A stretch of 12,791 nt of DNA, taken from Actinomycetota bacterium. GTDB lineage: Bacteria > Actinomycetota > Actinomycetes > Actinomycetales > Microbacteriaceae. The position numbers and the translations under genes were made by a program. The notes under the pieces were generated by a model, which saw nothing but the letters and a program-made list of their open reading frames with translations, ran no database searches and was not told where the DNA came from. Below are positions 337-12,791 of this stretch, in pieces (the stretch's first letter is position 1; each line of letters opens with the position of its first letter). The stretch spans positions 1 through 12,791 of the forward strand of contig WLFX01000011.1 of assembly GCA_009703545.1 (NCBI GenBank). Reading direction: 5' to 3'.

Positions 337-1785
337 ATGAAGGCGCAATCACTGCTCATCGGAGGGCAATGGGTTGACGCCAAAGCCCACGAACGCGAAG
401 ACGTTACTTCCCCATTCAACGGTGAAGTCGTGGGCAATGTTTCCCTTGCTCGACCGGTCGACGCGGAACGAGCAATCGACGCGGCTGTCATCGGTTTTGA
501 GACATGGCGTCGAACTCCCGCCCACGCCCGATTCGCGATTCTGACCAAAGCCGCCGCTCTCGCGGACGAACGCGCCGAGGACATCGCGCAAATAATGTCT
601 CGAGAAAACGGGAAGTCGATTCTTGAAGCGCGAGGCGAAGCCGGTCGATCGGGTGACATCATTCGATTGTCCGCATTCGAGGGTTCACAGTTGTACGGCG
701 ATTCGTTGCCTCTTGATGCGAACAAGGGAACCGGTTTTGACAAGATTGGCTTCACGATTCACCAGCCGGTCGGTGTCATTGTCGCGATTTCGCCATTCAA
801 CTACCCGGCGCTCTTGGTTCTACACAAAATCGCTCCGGCCCTCGCGGCCGGGAACGCCGTCGTTCTCAAGCCGGCGCGCGCAACTCCATTGACCGCGTTA
901 GCCGTAGCCCAGTGTTTCGTCGATGCGGGACTCCCCGATGGCGTGCTCAATGTGATCACGGGCGGCGGTTCCGATGTCGGCGACGCACTAGTTGGCGACC
1001 GTCGCGTTCGCAAGATTTCCTTCACGGGGTCGACGAGCGTTGGCGAGCACATCGCCTCGATCGCGGGTGTGAAGAAATTGTCCCTCGAACTCGGTGCCTC
1101 GGGGCCAGTCATTGTTCTCGATGACGCCGACATCGACGCCGCGACGACCTCCATCGCGCTCGGTGGATACATCAACTCCGGACAGGTCTGCATTTCCGCG
1201 CAGCGCATCATCGTTCACGAGAAGATCGTGGATGACTTCCTTGCGTCACTCACGCCGAAAGTCGAGGCGATTCGAGTCGGCGACCCATTCGGGGACGGAA
1301 TCACCGTCGGCAGCATGATCTCGAGGACCGAAGCTGACCGCGTCACCGGATCCATTCGTGCGGCCGTGTCGGCCGGCGCTCGTCTCGTCACCGGCGGTGA
1401 ACAGGACGGAAGCGTGATTCAGCCGGCGATTGTTGCCGACGTCGACCCCTACTCACCATTTGCACAGGACGAGCTGTTCGGACCTGCTGTGGCCGTCAGC
1501 ACCGCTCGAGACATCCAACACGCCATCGAACTCGCGAACTCCACCGCATACGGGCTCGGCGCGGGTGTCTTCACGAACAACATGTCCAACACAATTCGTG
1601 CCATTCGCGAGATCGAATCCGGCGTCGTCCACGTCAACTGGACCCAATTGTGGCGTGCGGACCTGATGCCCTACGGCGGTTTCAAATCGAGCGGGATCGG
1701 TAAAGAGGGACCGCGGTCGGCAATCGCCGAAATGACCGAAATTAAGACCGTCATCATGCACGGAACTCCCTGGACAAACAACTAA
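337..1785 (+). CDS. NAD(P)-dependent aldehyde dehydrogenase (first gene of the catabolic operon)
   Basis: A complete 482-residue ALDH-superfamily enzyme, which oxidises an aldehyde to the carboxylic acid with NAD(P)+. Visible motifs are the oxyanion-hole Asn in PFNYP (N155), the cofactor-binding Lys in VLKPA (K178), the Rossmann segment SFTGSTSVG (228-236), the general-base Glu in LELGASGP (E251), the catalytic Cys in SGQVCIS (C285) and ELFGP (379-383). The frame is open far upstream to base 19, but that extension overlaps the preceding gene. The ATG at 337 has GGAGG six bases before it and gives the normal family length. The SGQVCISAQR signature and the C-terminal MTEIKTV segment recall lactaldehyde/semialdehyde-type dehydrogenases. 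They do not fit the CoA-acylating methylmalonate-semialdehyde enzyme IolA, which I recall having GQRCM at the active site. It probably oxidises the aldehyde released by the aldolase two genes downstream. The substrate is not known. Confidence 0.9.
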   Translation: MKAQSLLIGGQWVDAKAHEREDVTSPFNGEVVGNVSLARPVDAERAIDAAVIGFETWRRTPAHARFAILTKAAALADERAEDIAQIMSRENGKSILEARGEAGRSGDIIRLSAFEGSQLYGDSLPLDANKGTGFDKIGFTIHQPVGVIVAISPFNYPALLVLHKIAPALAAGNAVVLKPARATPLTALAVAQCFVDAGLPDGVLNVITGGGSDVGDALVGDRRVRKISFTGSTSVGEHIASIAGVKKLSLELGASGPVIVLDDADIDAATTSIALGGYINSGQVCISAQRIIVHEKIVDDFLASLTPKVEAIRVGDPFGDGITVGSMISRTEADRVTGSIRAAVSAGARLVTGGEQDGSVIQPAIVADVDPYSPFAQDELFGPAVAVSTARDIQHAIELANSTAYGLGAGVFTNNMSNTIRAIREIESGVVHVNWTQLWRADLMPYGGFKSSGIGKEGPRSAIAEMTEIKTVIMHGTPWTNN

Positions 1786-1794
1786 GGACACCCC

Positions 1795-3753
1795 ATGACA
1801 CACTCCGGAAAAACCATTCGACTGACCGTTGCCCAAGCGCTCGTCAAATACATCGCGGCGCAATATTCCGTTGCCGACGGCGTTCGCGAGCGGTTCATCC
1901 CCGCCGCATTTGGGATTTTCGGGCACGGAAACGTTGCCGGTCTTGGGCAGGCGCTCGACGAATTCAACGATGAACTCCCCTTTATCCAGGGTCGAAACGA
2001 ACAGGCTCTTGCTCACGCCGCCATCGCTTTTGCAAAAGCAAAACGGCGTCGCCAAGCGCTCGCCGTGACGGCATCGATTGGGCCGGGCGCACTGAATATG
2101 GTGACCGCCGCCGGACTCGCGACGGTCAACAGACTCCCGGTCCTGTTGCTCCCCGGGGACACCTACGCCACCCGACGCCAAGGTCCCGTTCTGCAGCAGC
2201 TCGAAGACCCCAGCGCGCCCGACATCACGGCGAACGACGCATTCCGCCCCGTCTCGCGTTTCTTCGACCGGATCACGCGGCCCGAGCAACTCCTAACCGC
2301 ACTGCCGCAGGCGTTCCGTGTGCTCGCGAACCCCGTCGAAACCGGCGCCGTCGTCATCGCGCTTCCGCAAGACATTCAGTCACACGCTCACGACTACCCC
2401 GTCGAATTCTTTGAGCCGCACGACTGGAAGATCCGTCGCCCGCAGCCCGACGCAGATGACGTGCGCGCGGTCGCAGAAATTCTGCGCTCGGCGACCAAAC
2501 CGCTCATCATCGCCGGTGGTGGAATCATTTACTCGGGTGCGACACCCGAACTCGAAGCACTGGCGAACGCGACGGGCATTCCCGTTGCCGAGACATTCGG
2601 TGGCAAGGGCGCAATTCAGAATCCAGGGTCCTGGCACATCTGGGGTATCGGACTAGAAGGTTCCCCCGAAACGAACCGACTGGTCGAGCAGGCCGACGTC
2701 ATTCTGCACGTCGGTACGCGCTTGACTGATTTTGCGACCGCGTCACAGTCGCTGTTCCAGAACCCCAACGTCCGCTTCGTGAGCCTCAACGTCAGCGAAT
2801 TCGACGGAGTGAAGCAGGGAGCCGCCACGATTGTCGCGGACGCCAAGGTTGGGCTCGCTGCGCTAACGGCCGAAGTTGCGGGTTATCAGGTTCCGGGTGA
2901 ATGGACCGCGGAAATCGCCAAACGCCAGTCGCGCTGGGTCGCGATGCGTGCCGCCGCGATCGATCCCGACGTGTTATTCCCGAAGACCACGGAACACGAC
3001 CCCGACGGGACGGACGCGATCATTACACAGGGGCAAATGCTCGGTGTCATGCAAGAACACGCTCGAGCCGGTGACATCCTCATCGCGGGAGCTGGCGGTC
3101 CTCCCGGCGACGTCCAGAAGGTGTGGGACGCGACGAACGGGCGCTTCGCTCATCTCGAGTTCGGTTTCTCGTGCATGGGGTACGAACTGCCCGCCGCGAT
3201 CGGCGTTCGATTCGCCGAGCCCGATCCCGCTCACCGCGTCATGACGTTCATCGGTGACGGAACGTTCCTCATGGCTCCCACGGAACTCGTCACGGCGGCA
3301 CAAGAAGGCCTCCCGTTGACGATCGTCATCTCCGAGAACCACGGGTATCAGGTCATCCGGCGACTCCAGATGTGGCGCGTCGGCCACCACTACGGCAACG
3401 AATTCCGCTATCGCGACCCGGCGAAGAACGTTGTCAACCAGGTCGAATCAAAGAACAACGCTGGTCGCCTCGAGGGCGGATACCTCGACGTCGACCTCGT
3501 GTCGGTCGCCCAGGGACTCGGCGCTCACGCCCTTCGTGTTCGAACCGCTGACGAGTTCCGCGCCGCGCTCAACGACACCCGCGACAATGCCGGTCCCGTG
3601 GTCATCGTCGTCGCCACCATCCCCCACGCCAACCTGCCCGGTTCAGACGTCTGGTGGGATGTGGCACCCGCTGAGGTGTCGGACCAACCGTGGCTTGCCG
3701 CCGTCCGCAAGGACTATGCGGCGGGGATTGCCAACCAGCGTTGGCACGGATAG
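1795..3753 (+). CDS. iolD: IolD-like thiamine-diphosphate-dependent acylhydrolase (trihydroxycyclohexane-1,2-dione hydrolase family)
   Basis: A 652-residue TPP enzyme with the three domains of the acetolactate-synthase superfamily. The N-terminal pyrimidine domain covers about 1-200, with IFGHGNV at 41-47 and the cofactor-activating Glu in GRNEQ (E69). A central domain follows at about 220-360. The C-terminal pyrophosphate domain is at about 420-620, with GDG at 487-489 and the metal-ligand Asn N515. The opening IRLTVAQALVKYI, the FGHGNVxGLGQAL motif, PVLQQLE and RITRPEQL match IolD as I remember it. IolD hydrolyses the ring of 3D-(3,5/4)-trihydroxycyclohexane-1,2-dione to 5-deoxyglucuronate in myo-inositol breakdown. 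The start ATG is six bases after AAGGA, which overlaps the stop of the preceding gene. Two things are odd: the active-site strand reads NHGYQVIRRLQ where canonical IolD has NxGFGCINNLQ, and about 10-15 extra residues follow EFRYRDP (537-543). No iolB, iolC or iolE is nearby, so a related but different cyclic diketone may be the substrate. Confidence 0.85.
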   Translation: MTHSGKTIRLTVAQALVKYIAAQYSVADGVRERFIPAAFGIFGHGNVAGLGQALDEFNDELPFIQGRNEQALAHAAIAFAKAKRRRQALAVTASIGPGALNMVTAAGLATVNRLPVLLLPGDTYATRRQGPVLQQLEDPSAPDITANDAFRPVSRFFDRITRPEQLLTALPQAFRVLANPVETGAVVIALPQDIQSHAHDYPVEFFEPHDWKIRRPQPDADDVRAVAEILRSATKPLIIAGGGIIYSGATPELEALANATGIPVAETFGGKGAIQNPGSWHIWGIGLEGSPETNRLVEQADVILHVGTRLTDFATASQSLFQNPNVRFVSLNVSEFDGVKQGAATIVADAKVGLAALTAEVAGYQVPGEWTAEIAKRQSRWVAMRAAAIDPDVLFPKTTEHDPDGTDAIITQGQMLGVMQEHARAGDILIAGAGGPPGDVQKVWDATNGRFAHLEFGFSCMGYELPAAIGVRFAEPDPAHRVMTFIGDGTFLMAPTELVTAAQEGLPLTIVISENHGYQVIRRLQMWRVGHHYGNEFRYRDPAKNVVNQVESKNNAGRLEGGYLDVDLVSVAQGLGAHALRVRTADEFRAALNDTRDNAGPVVIVVATIPHANLPGSDVWWDVAPAEVSDQPWLAAVRKDYAAGIANQRWHG

Positions 3754-3757
3754 CCGC

Positions 3758-4534
3758 ATGACGACACCGCTGAACCACGGACGACTTCGCGAGCGCCTGC
3801 ACGGTCCCGACGTGACCGTCGGTGTTTTTGCGGGGCTGGGCTCTGTCCTCGCCGCCGAGGTCGCCGCCGCGAGCGGAGTCGACTGGATACTCGTGGATTG
3901 CGAACACGGTGCGTCGGGCGATGACATCGTGTCGCCAATCGTCGCGGCAACTGGCGCGTACGGCGTACCGACTCTGGTTCGGGCGGAATCCGGCGAGCGA
4001 ATCCGTATCGGTCGAGCTTTGGACGCGGGAGCGGCCGGTGTGATGATTCCCCGCCTGACAAGCGCTGATGAGGTCCGCGCTGCCGTCAGCCATTTCTTTT
4101 ATCCGCCGCGCGGAGACCGTGGTGTCGCCACCTACAACCGGGCAAACCAGTGGGGGGCCGAAATATCGGCACTCGACGGCGCCGTGCATGCGTGCGCGAT
4201 GATACAGATTGAAACCCGTGGCGCGCTCGCTGACGTCGACGAGATTGCGTCGATTGACGGTGTCGACATGCTCTTTGTCGGCCCACTAGACCTCAGCTAT
4301 TCCCTCGGAATTCCCCGACAATACGACCACCCCGACTTTCTCGCCGCGCTCGATTCGGTGCTCGTCGCTGCGAATCGCGCCGGGATTGCCGCCGGGATCC
4401 TCGCCCCCGACGCCGAGACCGCGCGGCGGCACATCGACCGGGGCTTTCGTTTCATCGCCGTGTCGTCCGACTCCGTCCTCTTGTCCGCCGCAATTCGCCA
4501 GAACGTCACCGCCCTGAAAGGAAACACCCCATGA
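3758..4534 (+). CDS. HpcH/HpaI-family class II (metal-dependent) aldolase
   Basis: A 258-residue protein of the size and fold of HpaI, GarL and RhmA. These enzymes cleave 2-keto-3-deoxy or 4-hydroxy-2-keto acids into pyruvate and an aldehyde. Visible residues are the catalytic His in VDCEHG (H50), the substrate-carboxylate Arg in LVRAES (R74), the pyruvate-loop segment GVMIPRL (94-100), and two metal ligands: the Glu in IQIETRGAL (E152) and the Asp in FVGPLDLSYSLG (D178). The ATG is four bases after the stop of the preceding gene with only a weak GGA before it, so translation is probably coupled. The frame stays open upstream into the previous gene, but MTTPLNHGRLRERL is the normal family beginning. 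In the operon it would split a product of the IolD-like step and hand an aldehyde to the first gene's dehydrogenase. The aldehyde partner cannot be told from the sequence. Citrate-lyase-beta-like members of the superfamily are longer and less likely. Confidence 0.88.
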   Translation: MTTPLNHGRLRERLHGPDVTVGVFAGLGSVLAAEVAAASGVDWILVDCEHGASGDDIVSPIVAATGAYGVPTLVRAESGERIRIGRALDAGAAGVMIPRLTSADEVRAAVSHFFYPPRGDRGVATYNRANQWGAEISALDGAVHACAMIQIETRGALADVDEIASIDGVDMLFVGPLDLSYSLGIPRQYDHPDFLAALDSVLVAANRAGIAAGILAPDAETARRHIDRGFRFIAVSSDSVLLSAAIRQNVTALKGNTP

Positions 4535-5745
4535 CCGCCTTTCCCCGCACCGAAATAGGCGTCGGACTAATCAGTGTCGGTTGGATGGGCAAGGTTCACA
4601 GTCGCGCCTACAGCGCCGTTCCGGTCGTGTATCCCGAACTGGGCATCATCCCCAAACTCATCATCGCTGCGGACACCGAGCCGTCGCGCGCCGAGTACGC
4701 GAAGGATGTTCTCGGCTATGCCGAATCGACCCTTGACTATCGCGAGGTGCTCGCACACCCCGACGTCGACGTTGTGTCAATTTGTGCGCCCAATTTCCTC
4801 CACGCGGAAATCGGCATCGCGGCAGCGAAAGCGGGCAAAGCATTTTGGATTGAGAAGCCCGTCGGACGTGGAGTTGAGGAAACGCGTGCCATCGAAGACG
4901 CCGCGAACGACGCTGGCGTTGTGTCGAGCATCGGATTCAACTATCGCCATGCCCCTGCCATCGAAAAGGCCAAGCAGATGATCGCCGACGGCACGCTCGG
5001 TCGCATCACCAACATTCGCGGAACATTCTTTGCCGACTATTCCTCTGAACCTAACGGAGCTCTGTCGTGGCGTTTCACTCGAGCCCTCGCGGGAAGTGGG
5101 GTTCTGGGTGATCTCATGGGACACCTCGTCGACCTCATGCAGTACATCGTCGGTCCGATTTCGGACGTTTCGGCGCTCACGTCAACGATTCACACACAGC
5201 GCCCCATCCAACAAATGGGCAAGGGCACACACTTCGATGTCATCGAAGGCGGCGAGATGGGGGACGTCGAAAACGAAGACTACGCGGCACTGCTCGTCCG
5301 ATTTGCGGAAAACGCCGTTGCAGCGGGGGCGGTCGGAACCCTCGAGGCATCGCGCGTCGCTGTCGGACCGCGCGCGGCCTATAACATCGAAATTTACGGG
5401 ACCGAGGGTTCGCTCAAATGGGATTTCGAGAAAATGAACGAGTTTGAGGTGGCCATCGGTCGTTCCGGCGACCTTCTCGGTTATCAGCGGGTGATGGCGG
5501 GGCCGAATTTCGGCGACTTCGCCCACTTCCAACCCGGCGCGGGAACAGGCATGGGGTTCGACGACCTGAAAGTTGTCGAAGTCAGGAAATTCCTCGAATC
5601 CTATATCGGGACGAGACACGTCAATTCGAACATTCATGACGCCGTTGCGGCCGCTCAGGTAATCGATGCGGCAGAACGTTCGGCCGAGAGCGGTGAGTGG
5701 ATTCACCTCAATGCGGTTGCTGGTGTCACCGCCGCGATTCGTTAG
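4531..5745 (+). CDS. Gfo/Idh/MocA-family NAD(P)-dependent oxidoreductase
   Basis: A complete 404-residue protein with the two-domain layout of inositol and glucose-fructose oxidoreductases. The Rossmann domain covers about 8-130, with the nucleotide loop GLISVGWMGKVH (12-23), VDVVSICAPN and the hallmark EKP (108-110). The C-terminal alpha/beta substrate domain contains GFNYRHAP (135-142) and the GDLMGH segment, whose D194 and H198 sit at the usual catalytic positions. Members oxidise a hydroxyl of a sugar or cyclitol to a ketone, or catalyse the reverse. The start codon overlaps the stop of the aldolase gene (ATGA) and has AAAGGAAA at 4517-4524. The first Gly of the usual GxGxxG is Ser here (SVGWMG), which may be a subfamily trait. 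Inositol dehydrogenase IolG is shorter, around 340 residues, so I do not call it iolG. In this operon it probably makes the keto intermediate that feeds the IolD-like enzyme. Confidence 0.88.
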   Translation: MTAFPRTEIGVGLISVGWMGKVHSRAYSAVPVVYPELGIIPKLIIAADTEPSRAEYAKDVLGYAESTLDYREVLAHPDVDVVSICAPNFLHAEIGIAAAKAGKAFWIEKPVGRGVEETRAIEDAANDAGVVSSIGFNYRHAPAIEKAKQMIADGTLGRITNIRGTFFADYSSEPNGALSWRFTRALAGSGVLGDLMGHLVDLMQYIVGPISDVSALTSTIHTQRPIQQMGKGTHFDVIEGGEMGDVENEDYAALLVRFAENAVAAGAVGTLEASRVAVGPRAAYNIEIYGTEGSLKWDFEKMNEFEVAIGRSGDLLGYQRVMAGPNFGDFAHFQPGAGTGMGFDDLKVVEVRKFLESYIGTRHVNSNIHDAVAAAQVIDAAERSAESGEWIHLNAVAGVTAAIR

Positions 5746-5752
5746 GAGCCCC

Positions 5753-6664
5753 ATGTCCGTCGTTGTCGCATTGGGTCCGGTCGACCGACCGATTGTCGAA
5801 AAACACCTTGGAGTTGACCACGTCCTCGTGTCGGACCCATCCGCTGCCGACCTGGCTGTTGCGGAAGGTGCGATTGTTCGTGGCAACGTGACCGTTGACC
5901 GAGCCTTGTTCGATTCCATGCCCCAACTTCGCGTACTCGCCCGAACCGGGGTTGGTACTGAACGTGTCGACCTCGATGTCGCACGGGAACGCTCCATCTC
6001 TGTTGTCATCACCCCGGGAAGTAACACCAACGCTGTGGCGGAAGGGGCGTTGGCTATGATGCTCCACCTCTCGAAACGACTTTCCCAACTCACGAACCTG
6101 GTGCGCGACGGCCGATGGTCAGAACGCGACAGTCTTCCGCTGGGGGATATCGACGGATCGACCGTGGGAATCGTTGGTTGGGGTCGAATTGGTCAGCGCC
6201 TCGGCGCAATCACCACGGCCCTCGGTGCGACGGTTCGCGCATTCGATCCGGTCGCACCAATCCCAACCGACATCCGTTGCGATTCCCTGGGCGAACTACT
6301 CGCGGTCAGTGATTTTGTGTCACTGCACGCACCCCTCATCGACTCCACCCGCCATATGATCAACGATGAATCACTCACGCACCTGAAGCCCGGTGCGATC
6401 CTCATCAATTGCGCACGGGGGCCGCTCATGGACCTCGACGCCGTGCATCGTTCACTGGTTGCTGGACGCCTTGCCGGGGTCGGTCTCGACGTGTTCGATG
6501 AGGAACCCGCGTCGATTCACCCGATCATGAGCGACCCACGCGTTGTCCTTACCCCACACGTCATGGGTCTCACTCAAACCGCAGCGGCACAAACGTTTAC
6601 CGACGCTGCCGACGGGATTTGTGCGGTTCTTCGTGGGGAAGCTCCCGCGGCAACCGCGTTCTAA
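5753..6664 (+). CDS. D-isomer-specific 2-hydroxyacid dehydrogenase
   Basis: A complete 303-residue NAD(P)-dependent dehydrogenase of the D-2-hydroxyacid family, which interconverts 2-hydroxy acids and 2-keto acids. The N-terminal substrate domain includes the RTGVGTERVDL segment (64-74). The nucleotide domain opens with GIVGWGRIGQRLG (139-151; GxGxxG at 142-147). The catalytic triad is intact: Arg in NCARGPLMD (R222), Glu in DVFDEEP (E251) and His in LTPHV (H269). There is no ACT or other regulatory domain, so it is not long-form SerA; the length fits hydroxypyruvate/glyoxylate reductases and phosphoglycerate-dehydrogenase-like catabolic members. The ATG lies four bases after AGGAG, which overlaps the previous stop. 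The frame is open 29 codons further upstream, but that would overlap the previous gene. It is last in the operon and probably acts on a 2-keto or 2-hydroxy acid from the pathway. The substrate is not determinable. Confidence 0.9.
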   Translation: MSVVVALGPVDRPIVEKHLGVDHVLVSDPSAADLAVAEGAIVRGNVTVDRALFDSMPQLRVLARTGVGTERVDLDVARERSISVVITPGSNTNAVAEGALAMMLHLSKRLSQLTNLVRDGRWSERDSLPLGDIDGSTVGIVGWGRIGQRLGAITTALGATVRAFDPVAPIPTDIRCDSLGELLAVSDFVSLHAPLIDSTRHMINDESLTHLKPGAILINCARGPLMDLDAVHRSLVAGRLAGVGLDVFDEEPASIHPIMSDPRVVLTPHVMGLTQTAAAQTFTDAADGICAVLRGEAPAATAF

Positions 6665-8410: not shown

Positions 8411-9832
8411 TTAGGACAACGAGGCGAGGAGTCGGTTGGTCGAAATCATCGCACCACCGAGGACTGCGGGGACTCCTCCGCCGGGGTGCACAGAAGCGCC
8501 AACGCGCCAAAGCCACGGGCGTCGTTTGGACGAGTAGCCGGGTTTGTGGAATGGCCCGCTCTGCCACCACGGATGGCCCTCGCCATAGAGGGCGCCGCCG
8601 ACGGCACCGAAGGCGGCGAAGTACTCGGGGTGAAAGACAGTGTGATCGGTGATCATCGTCGACAGTTCGCGCGGCAAACCCATCACGCGCGTGATTCGCG
8701 TCATCTCGCGTTGAACGAACTCATGGTCAATTCCGTATCGATTGCCGTCCGGTGGTGCCGTGAGCAAGATCGCAGCGGTCGGACGGTCATTCGGATAGAT
8801 GTGTCCGGCTCGGTAGTAATTGAGGAACGCCATCGTCTGATTCGGCAGAGTCTTCGTTCGAATGCTCTCGTACAGGTCGGCGGGGTCGTCCGGCATGATC
8901 ACCGAGTGCGTGACGATTTCCGGCGGTAACTCCTCGTCAAGTGCGGCGAACACAGCAATGCCTGAACACGACAGCGCTTTCGGGGCTCGGACCCGCTGAC
9001 CAAGTAATCGTTCGAGAATTCCCGCATCGAGCCCGCTGACAACAACATCCGCGTCATATTCCGCCAACTCCGTGACGACCTTCCCGCGCGACACCGAAAC
9101 GACCGGCTCACCGAGTCGAATCGTCGCCCCTGATTCCGTCGCAAGTCTGGCAATGGTCCGCGGGATCTCGTTGACTCCGCCGGTCGGTACCCAGACGCCG
9201 TCCGTTGACATCACGGCGGGCATCGTCGCGAACAGGGCGAGAGTTTTGGCTGGGGATACCCCCGCGTTAAGAGTGTGAATCGAGATGACTTCGCGCAGAT
9301 TCTCTGGCATCCAGTCGAGGCCGTCAAGATATCTGTCGGTGTTGAGCCGAGTTCCGTAGTGGCTGAACAGCGCGGCGGCTGCTGGGTAAATCGCGGGGTC
9401 CCACGGGTCGTTCGTCAACATCGTAGTGATGTGACGTCCGAGTGGTCCGTGTTCCGCCTCGAATCGGTCCCACGGCTCGCGCCACGCGTGCCCCGCTTCG
9501 ACGGGCAGGTTGGCAACATCGCCACGAAAGTAATACCGCCCGACTTCGGGAAGGCGTTCGAGAGTGAGCGGTGCAATCGTGCGGGCCGGCGTCGCACCGA
9601 CCGAACCGAGTTCGTCAAAACGATCGAAGAATTTCTCGAGCGCCGCCGGGAAAGTGATTAACGAGGGCCCGGTGTCGATGCGCTGACCCGCAACCTCGAT
9701 GCGACGACTCTTCCCGCCGATCCAATCATTCTTGTCAATGACCGTGACGTCGTGACCTGCGCGGGCAAGGAGCGCGGCCGAGGACAGGCCACCGAGCCCC
9801 GCCCCGATGACGACGACGCGGCGAGGGGTCAC
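8411..9832 (-). CDS. crtI: CrtI-family carotenoid (phytoene-type) desaturase
   Basis: A 473-residue FAD-dependent oxidoreductase of the phytoene desaturase/CrtD family, which introduces double bonds into carotenoid chains at the membrane. The N-terminus is a dinucleotide-binding fold ([21 protein letters not shown], with GxGxxG at 10-15), followed by a GGKS segment and [10 protein letters not shown]. The C-terminus has the family signature [17 protein letters not shown]. The frame is open far upstream, but the family start is at a GTG (9832-9830) that overlaps the stop of the prenyltransferase gene by four bases (GTGA). No ribosome binding site is visible, so translation is most likely coupled to that gene. 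The neighbour is a UbiA prenyltransferase resembling lycopene elongases. The product may therefore be the main phytoene desaturase, or a CrtD-like 3,4-desaturase acting after elongation; at 473 residues it is somewhat short for phytoene desaturases. No crtE or crtB is in the window. Confidence 0.82.
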
Positions 9833-10680
9833 GGATACAGCCCGAGCGTAATGCCCGTCACCAACTGAACGCCGGCAACGGCTCCCGCAACATAGGGGAA
9901 CGCAACCGAAAATTTGTAGAGGCGTTTTGCCTCGGCACTGGTGGGCGTTCGCCAGTTCGCGAGCAACAACCAGCCCGAAATCAGTCCAGACACAATTGCG
10001 ACCGGAGGGTTCACCATCGCGAACGCGACGGTCGAGACAATCCACCACGAACCCGACCACAACAGCGAACCTTTAATACCGAATTTCACTGCTGTCGTGA
10101 CGATTCCTGCTGCCGCATCCTCGTCGATGTCCTGAATGGCGTCATAAACGTGTTTCGCCATGCTCCAGGTCATGAGCCCGATGACCGCCGGCCACATCGG
10201 CTCGACCCCGAGTGCCAAGGGCACAAACGCGAGTGGGAAGGCATAATCAGCGTTGCTGACCGAATCCCAGACGGGTCGGGCCTTGAAACGCAGGGGAGTC
10301 GACGAGTACTGCCAGAACGAAAACGTGTAGGCCAGCATCCACAGGAGAGCGGCGACCGGAACCGTGAAAGCGAAATACACAAGGAACGGAGTGTTGAGGA
10401 CTACGACACCCCAGTTGATCATCCGGACTTCGGCGGGCTTGATTTTGGCTCCACCAAATCCGCCCTTGCGATCGTTCTCGGCGTCGGTGTCTTGATCGTA
10501 GATGTCGTTGATTCCGTAAATCAGGAGGTTGAACGGGAGGGTGACCCAGATGAGAATCGGCAGGATTTCCCAGGTCCAGAGGAACCCGGACAGCCACATA
10601 CCAACGACCGTGGTCCCTATCGTGTTAACCCACAGAACAGGACGAGAGATTTCAAAAAGTCGGCGAATCACAATGCCCAC
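9829..10680 (-). CDS. UbiA-family prenyltransferase, probably lycopene elongase-like (CrtEb/LyeJ type)
   Basis: A 283-residue membrane prenyltransferase with several hydrophobic helices. Both prenyl-diphosphate/Mg-binding motifs are present: the first is NDIYDQDTD (58-66, loop 2-3), the second YDAIQDIDED (169-178). UbiA enzymes attach an isoprenoid to an acceptor in the membrane. The YGINDIYDxDTDxEN pattern and the short ISRPVLWVN N-terminus are like lycopene elongases, which add C5 units to lycopene to make C50 carotenoids. The following gene is a CrtI-family desaturase with which it overlaps, which supports a carotenoid role over quinone, heme O or chlorophyll synthesis. The start is a GTG with GGAAG five bases upstream in the transcript. 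A second in-frame GTG three codons later is possible. The start region lies in an 11-bp inverted repeat that may affect translation. Confidence 0.82.
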   Translation of the reverse strand: MGIVIRRLFEISRPVLWVNTIGTTVVGMWLSGFLWTWEILPILIWVTLPFNLLIYGINDIYDQDTDAENDRKGGFGGAKIKPAEVRMINWGVVVLNTPFLVYFAFTVPVAALLWMLAYTFSFWQYSSTPLRFKARPVWDSVSNADYAFPLAFVPLALGVEPMWPAVIGLMTWSMAKHVYDAIQDIDEDAAAGIVTTAVKFGIKGSLLWSGSWWIVSTVAFAMVNPPVAIVSGLISGWLLLANWRTPTSAEAKRLYKFSVAFPYVAGAVAGVQLVTGITLGLYP

Positions 10681-10725: not shown

Positions 10726-12651
10726 TTAGACGAGGTTGTCGAGGTGCGGGTCTCCGACGCGAGTCGGGACCATGACAGCCTGAATCTCGGCACGGTTGAG
10801 CAGGTCCGTCATGCGGCGCTGGCGTTGCTTCGGTATCAACGTGACAACCGTTCCGGTCTTTCCCGCACGGCCCGTACGGCCCGAACGGTGCAGGTACGTC
10901 TTGTACTCGTCGGGGGCGTCCGCCTGGATGACGAGGTCGATGTCGTCGACGTGGATTCCACGTGCGGCAACGTCGGTCGCAACGAGCACGTTGACGCGGC
11001 CCGTCGTGAGGCGCTCGAGGTTACGAGTACGACGCGACTGGTTGAGGTCACCGTGAAGGCTGGTCGCCGGGATTCCGGCGTCCTCGAGTTCATCGGCGAG
11101 CTGCTCGGCATAAGCACGGGTGCGCGTGAACACGAGGGTCTTGCCATCACGACGGACGAGGTGCTCGATGAGAGGAATCTTGTCGCGGTGATCGATGATG
11201 AACACGCGGTGGTCGATGGTAGACGAGGACTGGTCTTCACCGGCAACCTCGTGAATCGCGGGCTCGGGGAGGAACTCGTCGATGATCGAGGCGACACCCT
11301 TATCGAGTGTTGCCGAGAACAACAGGCGCTGTCCGCCCTCGGCGGTGTCGCGAAGGATTCGCTGAACCGGCTCGAGGAATCCGAGGTCACACATGTGGTC
11401 GGCCTCGTCGAGAACCGTGATCTGGATCTGCGACAAGTCGATGTGACGCTGACGCGCGAGGTCCTCGAGACGACCGGGCGTGGCGATGACAATGTCAACA
11501 CCGCGACGGAGGCTCATGACCTGGGATCCTTGCGGAACTCCACCGACGATAGTCGTCGTGAAGAGACCGACCGATTTCGCGATGGGCATCACGGTGCGGT
11601 TAATCTGCATCGCGAGTTCACGAGTCGGAGCAAGGATGAGCGCGCGAGGCGAACGACCTTGGCTGCGCTTTTTTCCGCCTCCGTTTGCCATCAACAGTTC
11701 AACAATCGGTGCAGCAAAGGCGATGGTCTTGCCCGAACCGGTCCGACCACGACCGAGAACGTCACGACCAGCGAGAACATCCGGAATCGTTGCGGCCTGA
11801 ATGGGGAACGGGGCGGTTGCACCGAGTTCCAGGAGTGCGGATTCGATATTGCGTCCCAAACCGAGGTCGCCGAACGTCACACCATCGACGTCGTCGGCCG
11901 TGGTAGCCATCGCTTGAAGACGCTCGAGTACGACGTCTTCACCGGGCTCGTAGAACGCCTTCTCGTCGCGCGAGGGGTAGAAGTCGGAATCGCGGCGGGC
12001 GGGACGGTCGTCTCGTGCCGGTCGGTCGTCACGCGAGAAGCGATCGTTTCGGGGAGCGCGGTCATCACGAGCGGGACGACGGTCGTCGCGCACGGGACGG
12101 GACGGACGGTCATTGCGATCCGTGCGCGGTGCACGGTCGTCACGCGCGGGGCGTGAGCCACCAGAAAACCGGTCATCGCGTGCCGGACGGTCATCGCGTG
12201 CTGGACGGTCATCGCGTGCCGGACGGTCATCGCGTGCCGGACGGACGTCACGACGCTCATCACGTGTAGTTCGAACAGGACGGTCAAACTTGCTCTTCGC
12301 ATCCACGTGGCGGCCTTCCCGAACGGGACGGCCATCGCGGAATGCATATTCGTTTCGGGGGGCACGGTCGGTACGATCTGCGCGAGGAGCGCGGTCATCA
12401 CGCGCGGGGCGTACTGCGCGATCGTCGCGCGCTGGACGGTCGTCGCGCGCTGGGCGTGGCCCCGAGGCGTACCGATCGTCTCGTGCCGGGCGTGCGTCGC
12501 GGACGGGTCGGTCGTCGCGAGCACTACGAGCCGGACGGCTTGCGCCTGCCGGGCCATCGGGGCGGCCGAAACGGCTCTTTTTTTTCGCAGCGGCGTCGCG
12601 CGGCACGAAGTTCTTTCCGCGGCGTTCCGCGGGAGGGGTGTTGCTGGGCAT
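10726..12651 (-). CDS. DEAD-box ATP-dependent RNA helicase with Arg/Asp-rich N-terminal tail
   Basis: A 641-residue helicase that unwinds or remodels RNA using ATP, probably in ribosome assembly, mRNA turnover or cold adaptation (RhlE/DeaD-like). The core has all expected motifs: Q motif FPIQAATIP (282-290), Walker A RTGSGKT (303-309), PTREL (342-346), TPGR (391-394), DEAD (415-418), SAT (446-448), ATDVAARGI (558-566) and HRSGRTGRAG (588-597). Residues about 39-230 are low complexity, built from units such as DDRPAR, and presumably a disordered, RNA-binding, highly charged tail. I start at the ATG at 12651, which has GGAAAG seven bases upstream in the transcript. An ATG ten codons earlier and an open frame reaching 12771 have no clear ribosome binding site. 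Few residues follow the helicase core, so unlike DeaD there is no C-terminal RNA-binding domain; the long basic extension is N-terminal instead. Confidence 0.93.
   Translation of the reverse strand: MPSNTPPAERRGKNFVPRDAAAKKKSRFGRPDGPAGASRPARSARDDRPVRDARPARDDRYASGPRPARDDRPARDDRAVRPARDDRAPRADRTDRAPRNEYAFRDGRPVREGRHVDAKSKFDRPVRTTRDERRDVRPARDDRPARDDRPARDDRPARDDRFSGGSRPARDDRAPRTDRNDRPSRPVRDDRRPARDDRAPRNDRFSRDDRPARDDRPARRDSDFYPSRDEKAFYEPGEDVVLERLQAMATTADDVDGVTFGDLGLGRNIESALLELGATAPFPIQAATIPDVLAGRDVLGRGRTGSGKTIAFAAPIVELLMANGGGKKRSQGRSPRALILAPTRELAMQINRTVMPIAKSVGLFTTTIVGGVPQGSQVMSLRRGVDIVIATPGRLEDLARQRHIDLSQIQITVLDEADHMCDLGFLEPVQRILRDTAEGGQRLLFSATLDKGVASIIDEFLPEPAIHEVAGEDQSSSTIDHRVFIIDHRDKIPLIEHLVRRDGKTLVFTRTRAYAEQLADELEDAGIPATSLHGDLNQSRRTRNLERLTTGRVNVLVATDVAARGIHVDDIDLVIQADAPDEYKTYLHRSGRTGRAGKTGTVVTLIPKQRQRRMTDLLNRAEIQAVMVPTRVGDPHLDNLV
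12171..12242. repeat. Four 18-bp tandem repeats within the helicase gene
   Basis: Four head-to-tail copies of GGTCATCGCGTGCCGGAC, with a single C-to-T change in the second copy, encode residues 137-160 of the helicase as DDRPAR units. More degenerate copies of the same hexapeptide extend on both sides, roughly 11960-12540. The near-identity at the DNA level, including synonymous positions, suggests recent expansion by slippage or unequal recombination. The repeat length is a multiple of three, so copy-number change keeps the frame. Confidence 0.9.
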
Positions 12652-12682
12652 CAGAATGCTTTCCGGCTTGTAAATACCCATG

Positions 12683-12702
12683 GCGGCACACAGCAGTGCC
12701 GC
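12683..12702 (-). promoter_or_regulatory. Leader hairpin upstream of the helicase gene
   Basis: GCGGCAC and GTGCCGC form a perfect 7-bp GC-rich stem with a 6-base loop, ending 31 bases before the chosen helicase start codon. If the transcript begins further upstream, this lies in the 5' leader of the mRNA. DEAD-box helicase leaders are known in some bacteria to be structured and autoregulated, so a regulatory role is possible but unproven here. The remaining leader (to 12791) shows no complete promoter. Confidence 0.35.
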
Positions 12703-12791
12703 ACGAAACCGAGCTATCAGTGACCGGGTTCGATTCACGAGTGGGGACCATTGCCAACAGGATGTTGTCAACCCGACTCGGAACCTATACA

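Follow-up and report, generated by a model that had tools for sequence, protein, structure and literature searches.

The classical bacterial pathway of myo-inositol catabolism, found in Bacillus, Salmonella and Corynebacterium, runs through IolG, IolE, IolD, IolB, IolC, IolJ and IolA. In this study, we analyzed a five-gene operon that includes an iolD gene and lies on contig WLFX01000011.1 (assembly GCA_009703545.1) of a Microbacteriaceae metagenome-assembled genome (MAG); the whole stretch of 12,791 bases, hereafter the window, is one entire contig (C13), so that the contig ends coincide with the window ends. With the classical pathway the operon shares an IolD that scores above the family cut-off, and the corresponding locus of Arthrobacter cf158 also holds IolG, an IolE-like protein and the malonate-semialdehyde dehydrogenase MmsA/IolA, malonate semialdehyde being an expected product in both. 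In contrast, the functions of IolB, IolC and IolJ/Cgl0159/DUF2090 are absent from the operon, which instead encodes an aldehyde dehydrogenase (ALDH), a D-2-hydroxyacid dehydrogenase (HADH) and an HpcH/HpaI-type aldolase (HpcH), together with a Gfo/Idh/MocA dehydrogenase (Gfo). By comparison among genomes, we found a conserved gene set, an inositol context in relatives, and carriers in which neither the kinase IolC nor the aldolase Cgl0159 is detectable. Based on these comparisons, we assign a probability of about 50% to the reading that the operon encodes the later steps of a pathway that degrades inositol, or an isomer close to it, without phosphorylation; this would likely be a new variant of inositol catabolism, with a chemistry that we propose from the enzyme families.

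In earlier reports, inositol clusters are defined by iolB, iolC, iolD and iolE, with iolBCDE called the essential core (PMC9430895), an alternative phospho-aldolase, DUF2090, is described as fused to IolC (PMC9007349), and IolC and IolJ are the enzymes used (PMC8355322). A search of titles and abstract openings, in which the coverage of subscription journals was limited, returned no description of a kinase-free inositol route or of its intermediates. If such a route exists, some actinobacteria would have been mis-scored as unable to degrade inositol or assigned the wrong chemistry, substrates would be defined for some ALDH, D-2-hydroxyacid dehydrogenase and HpcH/HpaI proteins, all three being families whose annotation is difficult, and the product set would differ, with hydroxypyruvate in place of dihydroxyacetone phosphate.

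Other described systems resemble parts of the operon. In the D-glucarate/galactarate pathway, an HpcH/HpaI aldolase splits a six-carbon diacid into a 2-keto acid plus an aldehyde that bears a carboxyl group; the aldolase GarL acts on a 3-deoxy acid produced by a dehydratase and yields pyruvate. GarL is among the nearest models of the operon HpcH, whereas the operon core has no dehydratase and hydroxypyruvate would be the expected product. The Weimberg and Dahms pathways start from an aldose, which is oxidized to an acid, processed by aldonate dehydratases and then cleaved or oxidized without a kinase, while the acid of the operon would arise from the opening of a cyclitol ring by IolD. Levoglucosan dehydrogenase and scyllo-inositol (L-glucose) dehydrogenase are the nearest solved relatives of the operon Gfo, which scores below the levoglucosan dehydrogenase cut-off (Table 1) and whose gene is missing in 5 of 45 loci.

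The window carries five intact genes around a predicted IolD

The putative operon was confirmed as genuine, with all five genes intact and on the same strand (Table 1). The mechanical open reading frame (ORF) of the last gene spans 5666-6664, for which the in-frame ATG at 5753 (MSVVV...) was chosen as the start. With this start, the genes are spaced by 9, 4, −4 (an overlap) and 7 bases, and thus the close packing given in the initial annotation, with gaps of 4-9 bases and a 4-base overlap, is borne out. Comparison of the window with four same-genus loci gave ratios of nonsynonymous to synonymous substitution rates (dN/dS) of 0.03-0.18 across the five genes (NG86; dS 0.36-2.2, partly near saturation), and by this estimate all of them are under purifying selection.

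Table 1. Genes of the operon, with their positions in the window, family matches and proposed roles.
Gene product	Position	Strand	Family match	Proposed role
ALDH, NAD(P)-dependent aldehyde dehydrogenase	337..1785	+	PF00171, 517 bits	5-deoxyglucuronate to 5-deoxyglucarate
IolD, thiamine-diphosphate-dependent trihydroxycyclohexane-1,2-dione hydrolase	1795..3753	+	TIGR04377, 776 bits (cut-off 715), residues 9-649 of 652	
HpcH, HpcH/HpaI-type metal-dependent 2-keto acid aldolase	3758..4534	+	PF03328	splits 3,4-dihydroxy-2-oxoadipate
Gfo, Gfo/Idh/MocA dehydrogenase	4531..5745	+	levoglucosan dehydrogenase model, 321 bits, under cut-off 650	entry dehydrogenase
HADH, D-2-hydroxyacid dehydrogenase	5753..6664	+	PF02826/PF00389	oxidizes C2 of 5-deoxyglucarate and/or reduces hydroxypyruvate

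The curated family score supports the window protein as a true IolD, with a predicted hydrolysis of the cyclic dione. The G and D of its GDG motif, which binds thiamine diphosphate (ThDP), are kept in all 47 loci collected below and its N-terminal Glu69 in 45 of them, with the remaining two unaligned. Among the matches listed, no NCBIfam cut-off is passed by HpcH, Gfo, HADH or ALDH (for ALDH, the best 25 of 45). The best solved match of ALDH is a succinate-semialdehyde dehydrogenase, the MmsA model TIGR01722 is not among its best 25 of 45 matches, and its catalytic Cys and Glu are kept in 42/42 orthologues of at least 60% identity from the 47 loci. HpcH scores below the cut-offs of all its best NCBIfam models, namely HpaI (176 bits, cut-off 369), PRK10558 (163 bits) and GarL (160 bits, cut-off 407), and has YfaU, HpaI and GarL as solved relatives; Asp47, His50, Arg75, Arg121 and Glu152 are kept in 45/45 and Asp178 in 43/45. 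Except for Arg121, these are presumably the metal- and substrate-binding residues of HpcH/HpaI class II pyruvate aldolases. The nearest solved structures of Gfo are 6a3f, labelled putative dehydrogenase and which we take to be levoglucosan dehydrogenase, and 5ya8, a scyllo-inositol/L-glucose dehydrogenase, and its Lys, Asp and His are kept in 40/40 orthologues. For HADH, phosphoglycerate dehydrogenase (PGDH) and glycerate dehydrogenase/glyoxylate reductase are the nearest solved proteins, with Arg and Glu each kept in 40 and His in 39 of 41 orthologues, the remainder being unaligned.

No match to the iolB, iolC, iolE or Cgl0159 families was found among the large ORFs of the window, so that the absence of iolB, iolC and iolE noticed initially holds at the locus. 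Only iolD is present among these ORFs, while PMC9430895 defines a classical cluster by at least three of iolB, iolC, iolD and iolE within 10 kb. The window genome (G000), a Microbacteriaceae MAG of 1.0 Mb in 147 contigs and 65% complete, contains iolB on contig C70 and, on C47, iolC (373 bits) followed by Cgl0159; C109 has an iolE-like gene that scores 176 bits, under the cut-off of 290. A second iolD (807 bits), whose product is ~40% identical to the window IolD, stands in line with this iolB on C70, together with a Gfo gene and a Cgl0159-type aldolase gene of which the 3′ end is present. Because these genes lie elsewhere in the genome, the statement that the operon comes without the rest of the inositol pathway is true only locally: the pathway is missing from the five-gene operon, not from the organism, and a simple lack of iol genes in the window genome was rejected. 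The C70 IolD (L005, 326-4246; order Cgl0159-iolB-Gfo-iolD) belongs to a group of four rows on a very long branch (2.4) of the IolD tree, of which the other three are same-genus or come from genomes holding same-genus loci, and it may itself be an unusual IolD.

A four-gene core is conserved with this IolD

Close relatives of the window IolD were scanned for in one genome per species by exact matches to six 8-residue patterns, which gave 46 loci. A 47th locus, with ALDH-IolD-HpcH-Gfo, was added from G116, a genome of another class in a phylum sample, where 2 of 396 genomes, the window genome being one, exceeded 1000 bits for this IolD. Dropped from the set were L069 (a stop in the extracted piece), matches shorter than 500 aa and four duplicate loci of the window genome. 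The counts exclude loci interrupted by a contig end, and the residue counts above likewise come from the 47 loci. HpcH lies directly 3′ of IolD in 45 of the 46 readable loci, which exceeds chance, ALDH precedes IolD in 43/44 (the 43rd, in L045, being 47% identical), HADH follows in 41/42, and Gfo is present in 40/45. The sole readable locus without ALDH, HpcH and HADH is L018. Gfo is missing in L018 as well as in L014, L015, L043 and L050, and as HpcH and HADH persist in the latter four, with ALDH wherever the contig extends to it, the core is ALDH-IolD-HpcH-HADH and Gfo was rejected as an essential member of the unit. Thus the co-occurrence of the families, proposed initially as a check, is found for this core in nearly all 47 loci.

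The carriers are Microbacteriaceae MAGs, Arthrobacter, Pseudarthrobacter, Paenarthrobacter, Sinomonas, Rhodococcus jostii, R. koreensis, a Cellulomonadaceae MAG and uncultured actinobacteria including SCGC AAA278-O22, which we take from the sample names to be freshwater organisms. The closest named relatives of the window IolD come from Microbacteriaceae MAGs. This IolD was found in 11 of 14 other genomes of the genus and in none of 45 sampled genomes of its family and order outside the genus, a patchy distribution that suggests horizontal transfer. A plasmid search returned two IolD matches, both below 50%. Three of the carriers are MAGs labelled Gulosibacter (L008, L009 and L014; genomes of 0.9-1.2 Mb); their IolDs cluster with sequences from MAGs whose label is Microbacteriaceae alone, and the Gulosibacter label appears doubtful.

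In a quick IolD tree, for which 145 sequences were reduced to 116 by removing identical rows, this IolD type formed one clade of 47 rows (SH-aLRT 100). According to a warning of the tree program, the long row L144 may have been joined falsely to this clade, a point that bears on the outer connection of the clade and not on its interior. The long branch of the clade (0.84), read with this warning, and the many other ThDP enzymes among the solved relatives of IolD would fit a reading in which inositol is not involved and an IolD relative has been re-used for another ThDP reaction. We consider this very improbable, since the curated IolD cut-off is passed and inositol-type genes surround IolD in relatives.

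Inositol-type genes surround the operon in relatives

The presence or absence of genes near the operon was read by tblastn plus whole-genome family searches. Because ORF picking can lose real genes in high-GC DNA, as shown by the known Cgl0159 of the canonical stretch L180, which was dropped, the neighbourhood calls rest on tblastn, which as a positive control recovered IolC, Cgl0159 and MmsA in L180. At the locus of Arthrobacter cf158 (L028, L173), an ABC transporter (binding protein, permease and ATPase), ALDH, IolD, HpcH and Gfo are followed by a LacI regulator, HADH, IolG, a short-chain dehydrogenase/reductase (SDR), an IolE-like gene, another Gfo and MmsA. Of these, IolG (371 bits, cut-off 355) and the malonate-semialdehyde dehydrogenase MmsA (705 bits, cut-off 448.5) score above their cut-offs; the IolE-like protein, with IolE as its only model (173 bits, cut-off 290), and the sugar-binding protein, with the rhizopine substrate-binding protein as its best model (199 bits, cut-off 420), score below. 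A transporter and a regulator, which the initial annotation had suggested looking for, are both found next to the operon here, as a sugar ABC transporter and LacI.

The other Micrococcaceae loci also contain homologues of the LacI, IolG and IolE-like genes of cf158, and in four of five extended Micrococcaceae stretches (G075, G076, G078 and G088; not Sinomonas G083) MmsA is part of the locus. In Arthrobacter globiformis NBRC 12137 (L034), for example, ALDH, IolD, HpcH, Gfo, LacI, HADH, IolG-like and IolE-like genes share a single stretch. Around the operon, tblastn detected no IolB, IolC or Cgl0159 in the stretches retrieved from Micrococcaceae, Rhodococcus and the window genus. IolB is at least 300 kb from the operon on the same contig in G075, G076, G078 and G088 and 104 kb from it in G080, and a canonical iolC-Cgl0159-iolD-mmsA cluster lies ~0.8 Mb from the operon in G076. 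The small uncultured genomes have LacI, RmlD-like and IolE-like genes next to the operon, along with Gfo genes ~50% identical to the Arthrobacter IolG; iolB is close to the operon in most of these genomes and in L017, and an IolB above the cut-off (210 vs 205 bits) stands in line with the operon in L017/L119. Among the relatives' stretches fetched, iolC adjoins this IolD in L018 only. The window-genus stretches have no LacI, RmlD-like, IolE-like or IolG-like neighbours, except for an RmlD-like gene in L011-L013 and a LacI-like gene in L011 and L013. The RmlD-like gene, an extended SDR, recurs with the operon or with nearby inositol genes in L011, L012, L013, L119, L121-L123, L125 and L127, and it is not among the large ORFs of the window. 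An inositol-type island of ~26 kb was observed in G070 (SCGC AAA278-O22; contig C1, 38001-75000; L124, L125), a genome without IolC above the cut-off; it contains MmsA, IolB, an IolE-like gene, several Gfo genes, an ABC transporter and the five-gene operon.

The IolG, MmsA and IolE-like genes in the loci of relatives point to inositol or a close isomer as the substrate rather than to a deoxy-cyclitol. Another cyclitol, such as an O-methyl-inositol, a rhizopine-like aminocyclitol or a quercitol, is a rather unlikely alternative, possibly with the aldolase acting first to give pyruvate and an aldehyde, followed by ALDH and HADH. It would fit the match of the transporter binding protein to the rhizopine model and the closeness of Gfo to levoglucosan-type and scyllo-inositol/L-glucose dehydrogenases, and the presence of IolC above the cut-off in 22/23 carriers with a second IolD makes it plausible that different isomers or derivatives are shared out between two systems. 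However, this IolD is the only one in seven small genomes, and an IolG above its cut-off together with MmsA in the cf158 locus is as expected for plain inositols. The aldolase-first order in particular would require a dehydratase to supply the 3-deoxy acid for cleavage to pyruvate and an aldehyde, and the conserved core has none.

Some carriers lack a detectable IolC kinase and Cgl0159 aldolase

IolC was found above the cut-off in 38 of 46 carrier genomes (17/23 + 21/23), and not in G067, G068, G069, G070, G086, G065, G061 and G116. As kinase-free genomes, G065 (locus L017) was rejected because Cgl0159 lies at the contig start and iolC precedes Cgl0159 in L129 and L163, and G061 and G116 because a piece of iolC is present at the contig end. 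In the other five (G067, G068, G069, G070 and G086), the sole IolD is of this type, an IolE-like gene and IolB are present, neither IolC nor Cgl0159 exceeds its cut-off, and MmsA was found in four. Over the searched genomes as a whole, Cgl0159 is above the cut-off in 17/23 and MmsA in 8/11, and this IolD is the only IolD in 7 of 30 carriers (G065-G070 and G086), of which a single one, G066, has IolC above the cut-off. Judging from these gene contents, the pathway of the operon is probably kinase-free.

G066 is itself without HpcH, ALDH, Gfo and HADH, and it carries IolC (374 bits) and IolB beside IolD. Its IolD (L018) is nested within the clade as sister to L019/L020/L021/L047, and this pattern resembles a replacement that took place inside a single lineage. 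As L018 demonstrates, this IolD is able to sit with IolC and IolB, which, as IolB and IolC also occur at other sites of the window genome and in the majority of carriers (IolB 29/30, IolC above the cut-off 38/46), would suit a paralogue feeding the canonical IolB/IolC branch, with ALDH, HpcH and HADH treating side products. This alternative appears distinctly improbable in view of the five carriers without IolC or Cgl0159 above the cut-off, and the four-gene core is very constant across families for a side function.

A proposed non-phosphorylative route for inositol

In the route that we propose, a Gfo/Idh/MocA dehydrogenase would make a keto-inositol, as in the classical upper step, and an IolE-like enzyme encoded outside the window would dehydrate it. 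IolD would then open the ring to 5-deoxy-D-glucuronate, whose two ends are an aldehyde and an acid, and ALDH would oxidize the aldehyde to give 5-deoxy-D-glucarate. The C2 of 5-deoxy-D-glucarate forms an (R)-2-hydroxy acid, the type handled by D-2-hydroxyacid dehydrogenases, and its oxidation by HADH would yield 3,4-dihydroxy-2-oxoadipate, a 4-hydroxy-2-keto diacid of the type cleaved by HpaI and GarL. The HpcH/HpaI aldolase would cut this compound between C3 and C4 to hydroxypyruvate and malonate semialdehyde, of which the latter would be converted to acetyl-CoA by MmsA/IolA and the former to D-glycerate, perhaps by the same HADH or by another reductase. ALDH, HADH and HpcH would in this way take the place of IolB, IolC and IolJ/Cgl0159. 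We infer every substrate in this scheme, as well as the order of ALDH, HADH and HpcH. The route uses all four core genes, leaves no gap from IolD to MmsA and accounts for the Arthrobacter MmsA. Tentatively, at slightly less than even odds, IolG, the IolE-like enzyme, IolD, ALDH, HADH, HpcH and MmsA could constitute a complete non-phosphorylative inositol pathway in Actinomycetota, which would replace IolB-IolC-IolJ, save the ATP used by IolC and serve some small-genome actinobacteria as their sole route for inositol.

Accordingly, the kinase-free catabolic operon of the initial annotation is supported in outline, being conserved as a unit and containing the only IolD of five genomes without IolC or Cgl0159 above the cut-off, while its detailed step order and substrate are not supported. 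The upper pathway resembles the classical one and appears to be encoded elsewhere. The shorter route without a dehydratase that it had suggested conflicts with the IolE-like genes carried in the same locus by relatives, some of which also carry IolG and malonate-semialdehyde dehydrogenase, and the same context speaks for inositol itself or a close isomer in place of the suggested deoxy-cyclitol. It had also placed the aldolase before ALDH and HADH, and the gene set would be better explained if these two acted before the aldolase.

Several observations weigh against a kinase-free route of this kind. Chemically, the NAD-dependent oxidation of a 2-hydroxy acid is uphill. The IolE-like proteins score under the IolE cut-off of 290, and MmsA is not in the locus in Sinomonas G083 and in the stretches of two Rhodococcus genomes and, among the 11 genomes searched, was not found in G000 (65% complete), G066 and G068. 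As for the kinase, G067 and G086 have other PfkB-type matches to the IolC model (157 and 160 bits, cut-off 300), and the genome of L043 (G482), which the tree places close to G070, combines the operon with IolC. Cgl0159 was not found above the cut-off in G066-G070 and G086 (20 bits in G086, cut-off 27), in searches that did not extend to IolJ proper and DUF2090. The five IolC-free genomes are draft MAGs or a single-cell genome, their completeness not stated, and they occupy two tree branches, one of which consists of four close relatives, while the pathway of G066 is itself incomplete in the data, with no Cgl0159 and no MmsA found. Furthermore, as nearly all carriers with a second IolD have IolC (22/23), the operon usually accompanies the classical route and may there serve other isomers. 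Finally, the proposed route has no use for IolB, which is nonetheless kept in 29/30 carrier genomes, including the five IolC-free ones, and which lies on the contig of the operon in four of these five (~3.6 kb away in three and 18 kb in G070).

Because this retention of IolB is unexplained, a variant that depends on IolB is kept as a rival, although we regard it as unlikely. It would also be kinase-free and would proceed via IolB to 2-deoxy-5-keto-D-gluconate, which HpcH would cut to malonate semialdehyde and dihydroxyacetone, ALDH and HADH then processing the three-carbon product (glyceraldehyde, glycerate, hydroxypyruvate). The IolB above the cut-off in line with the operon in L017/L119 is consistent with this variant, as are the frequency of IolB in carriers and its place on the operon contig in four of the five IolC-free genomes, whereas no IolB was found near the operon in the Micrococcaceae stretches. 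In addition, the nucleophile of aldolases in this HpcH/HpaI subfamily is pyruvate or hydroxypyruvate, and HpcH keeps their metal- and substrate-binding residues, which argues against this variant.

Neighbouring genes and a distant locus

An amino-acid permease, a CrtI-family desaturase and a DEAD-box helicase are encoded 3′ of the operon on the opposite strand. The CrtI-family desaturase (8411-10060, − strand) matches the phytoene desaturase family model with 165 bits, under the cut-off of 238, and such a gene is also close to the operon in L008, L013 and L015. In the DEAD-box RNA helicase (10726-12771, − strand), long N-terminal Arg/Asp-rich repeats (PARDDR-type) precede the helicase domain.

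L162 (G358, contig C13 of that genome) was tried as a second instance of the operon and judged weak, as a 41% identical HADH gene follows IolD and an HpcH gene 28% identical lies nearby in different surroundings (HisD-like, SDR, SMP-30 and DegT). At this locus (5083-14300), a different IolD (46% identical) is followed by the D-2-hydroxyacid dehydrogenase and a gluconolactonase-like gene, and its neighbours also include the HpcH-family gene, a HisD-like dehydrogenase, two SDRs and a DegT aminotransferase. This gene content possibly represents an aminocyclitol pathway.

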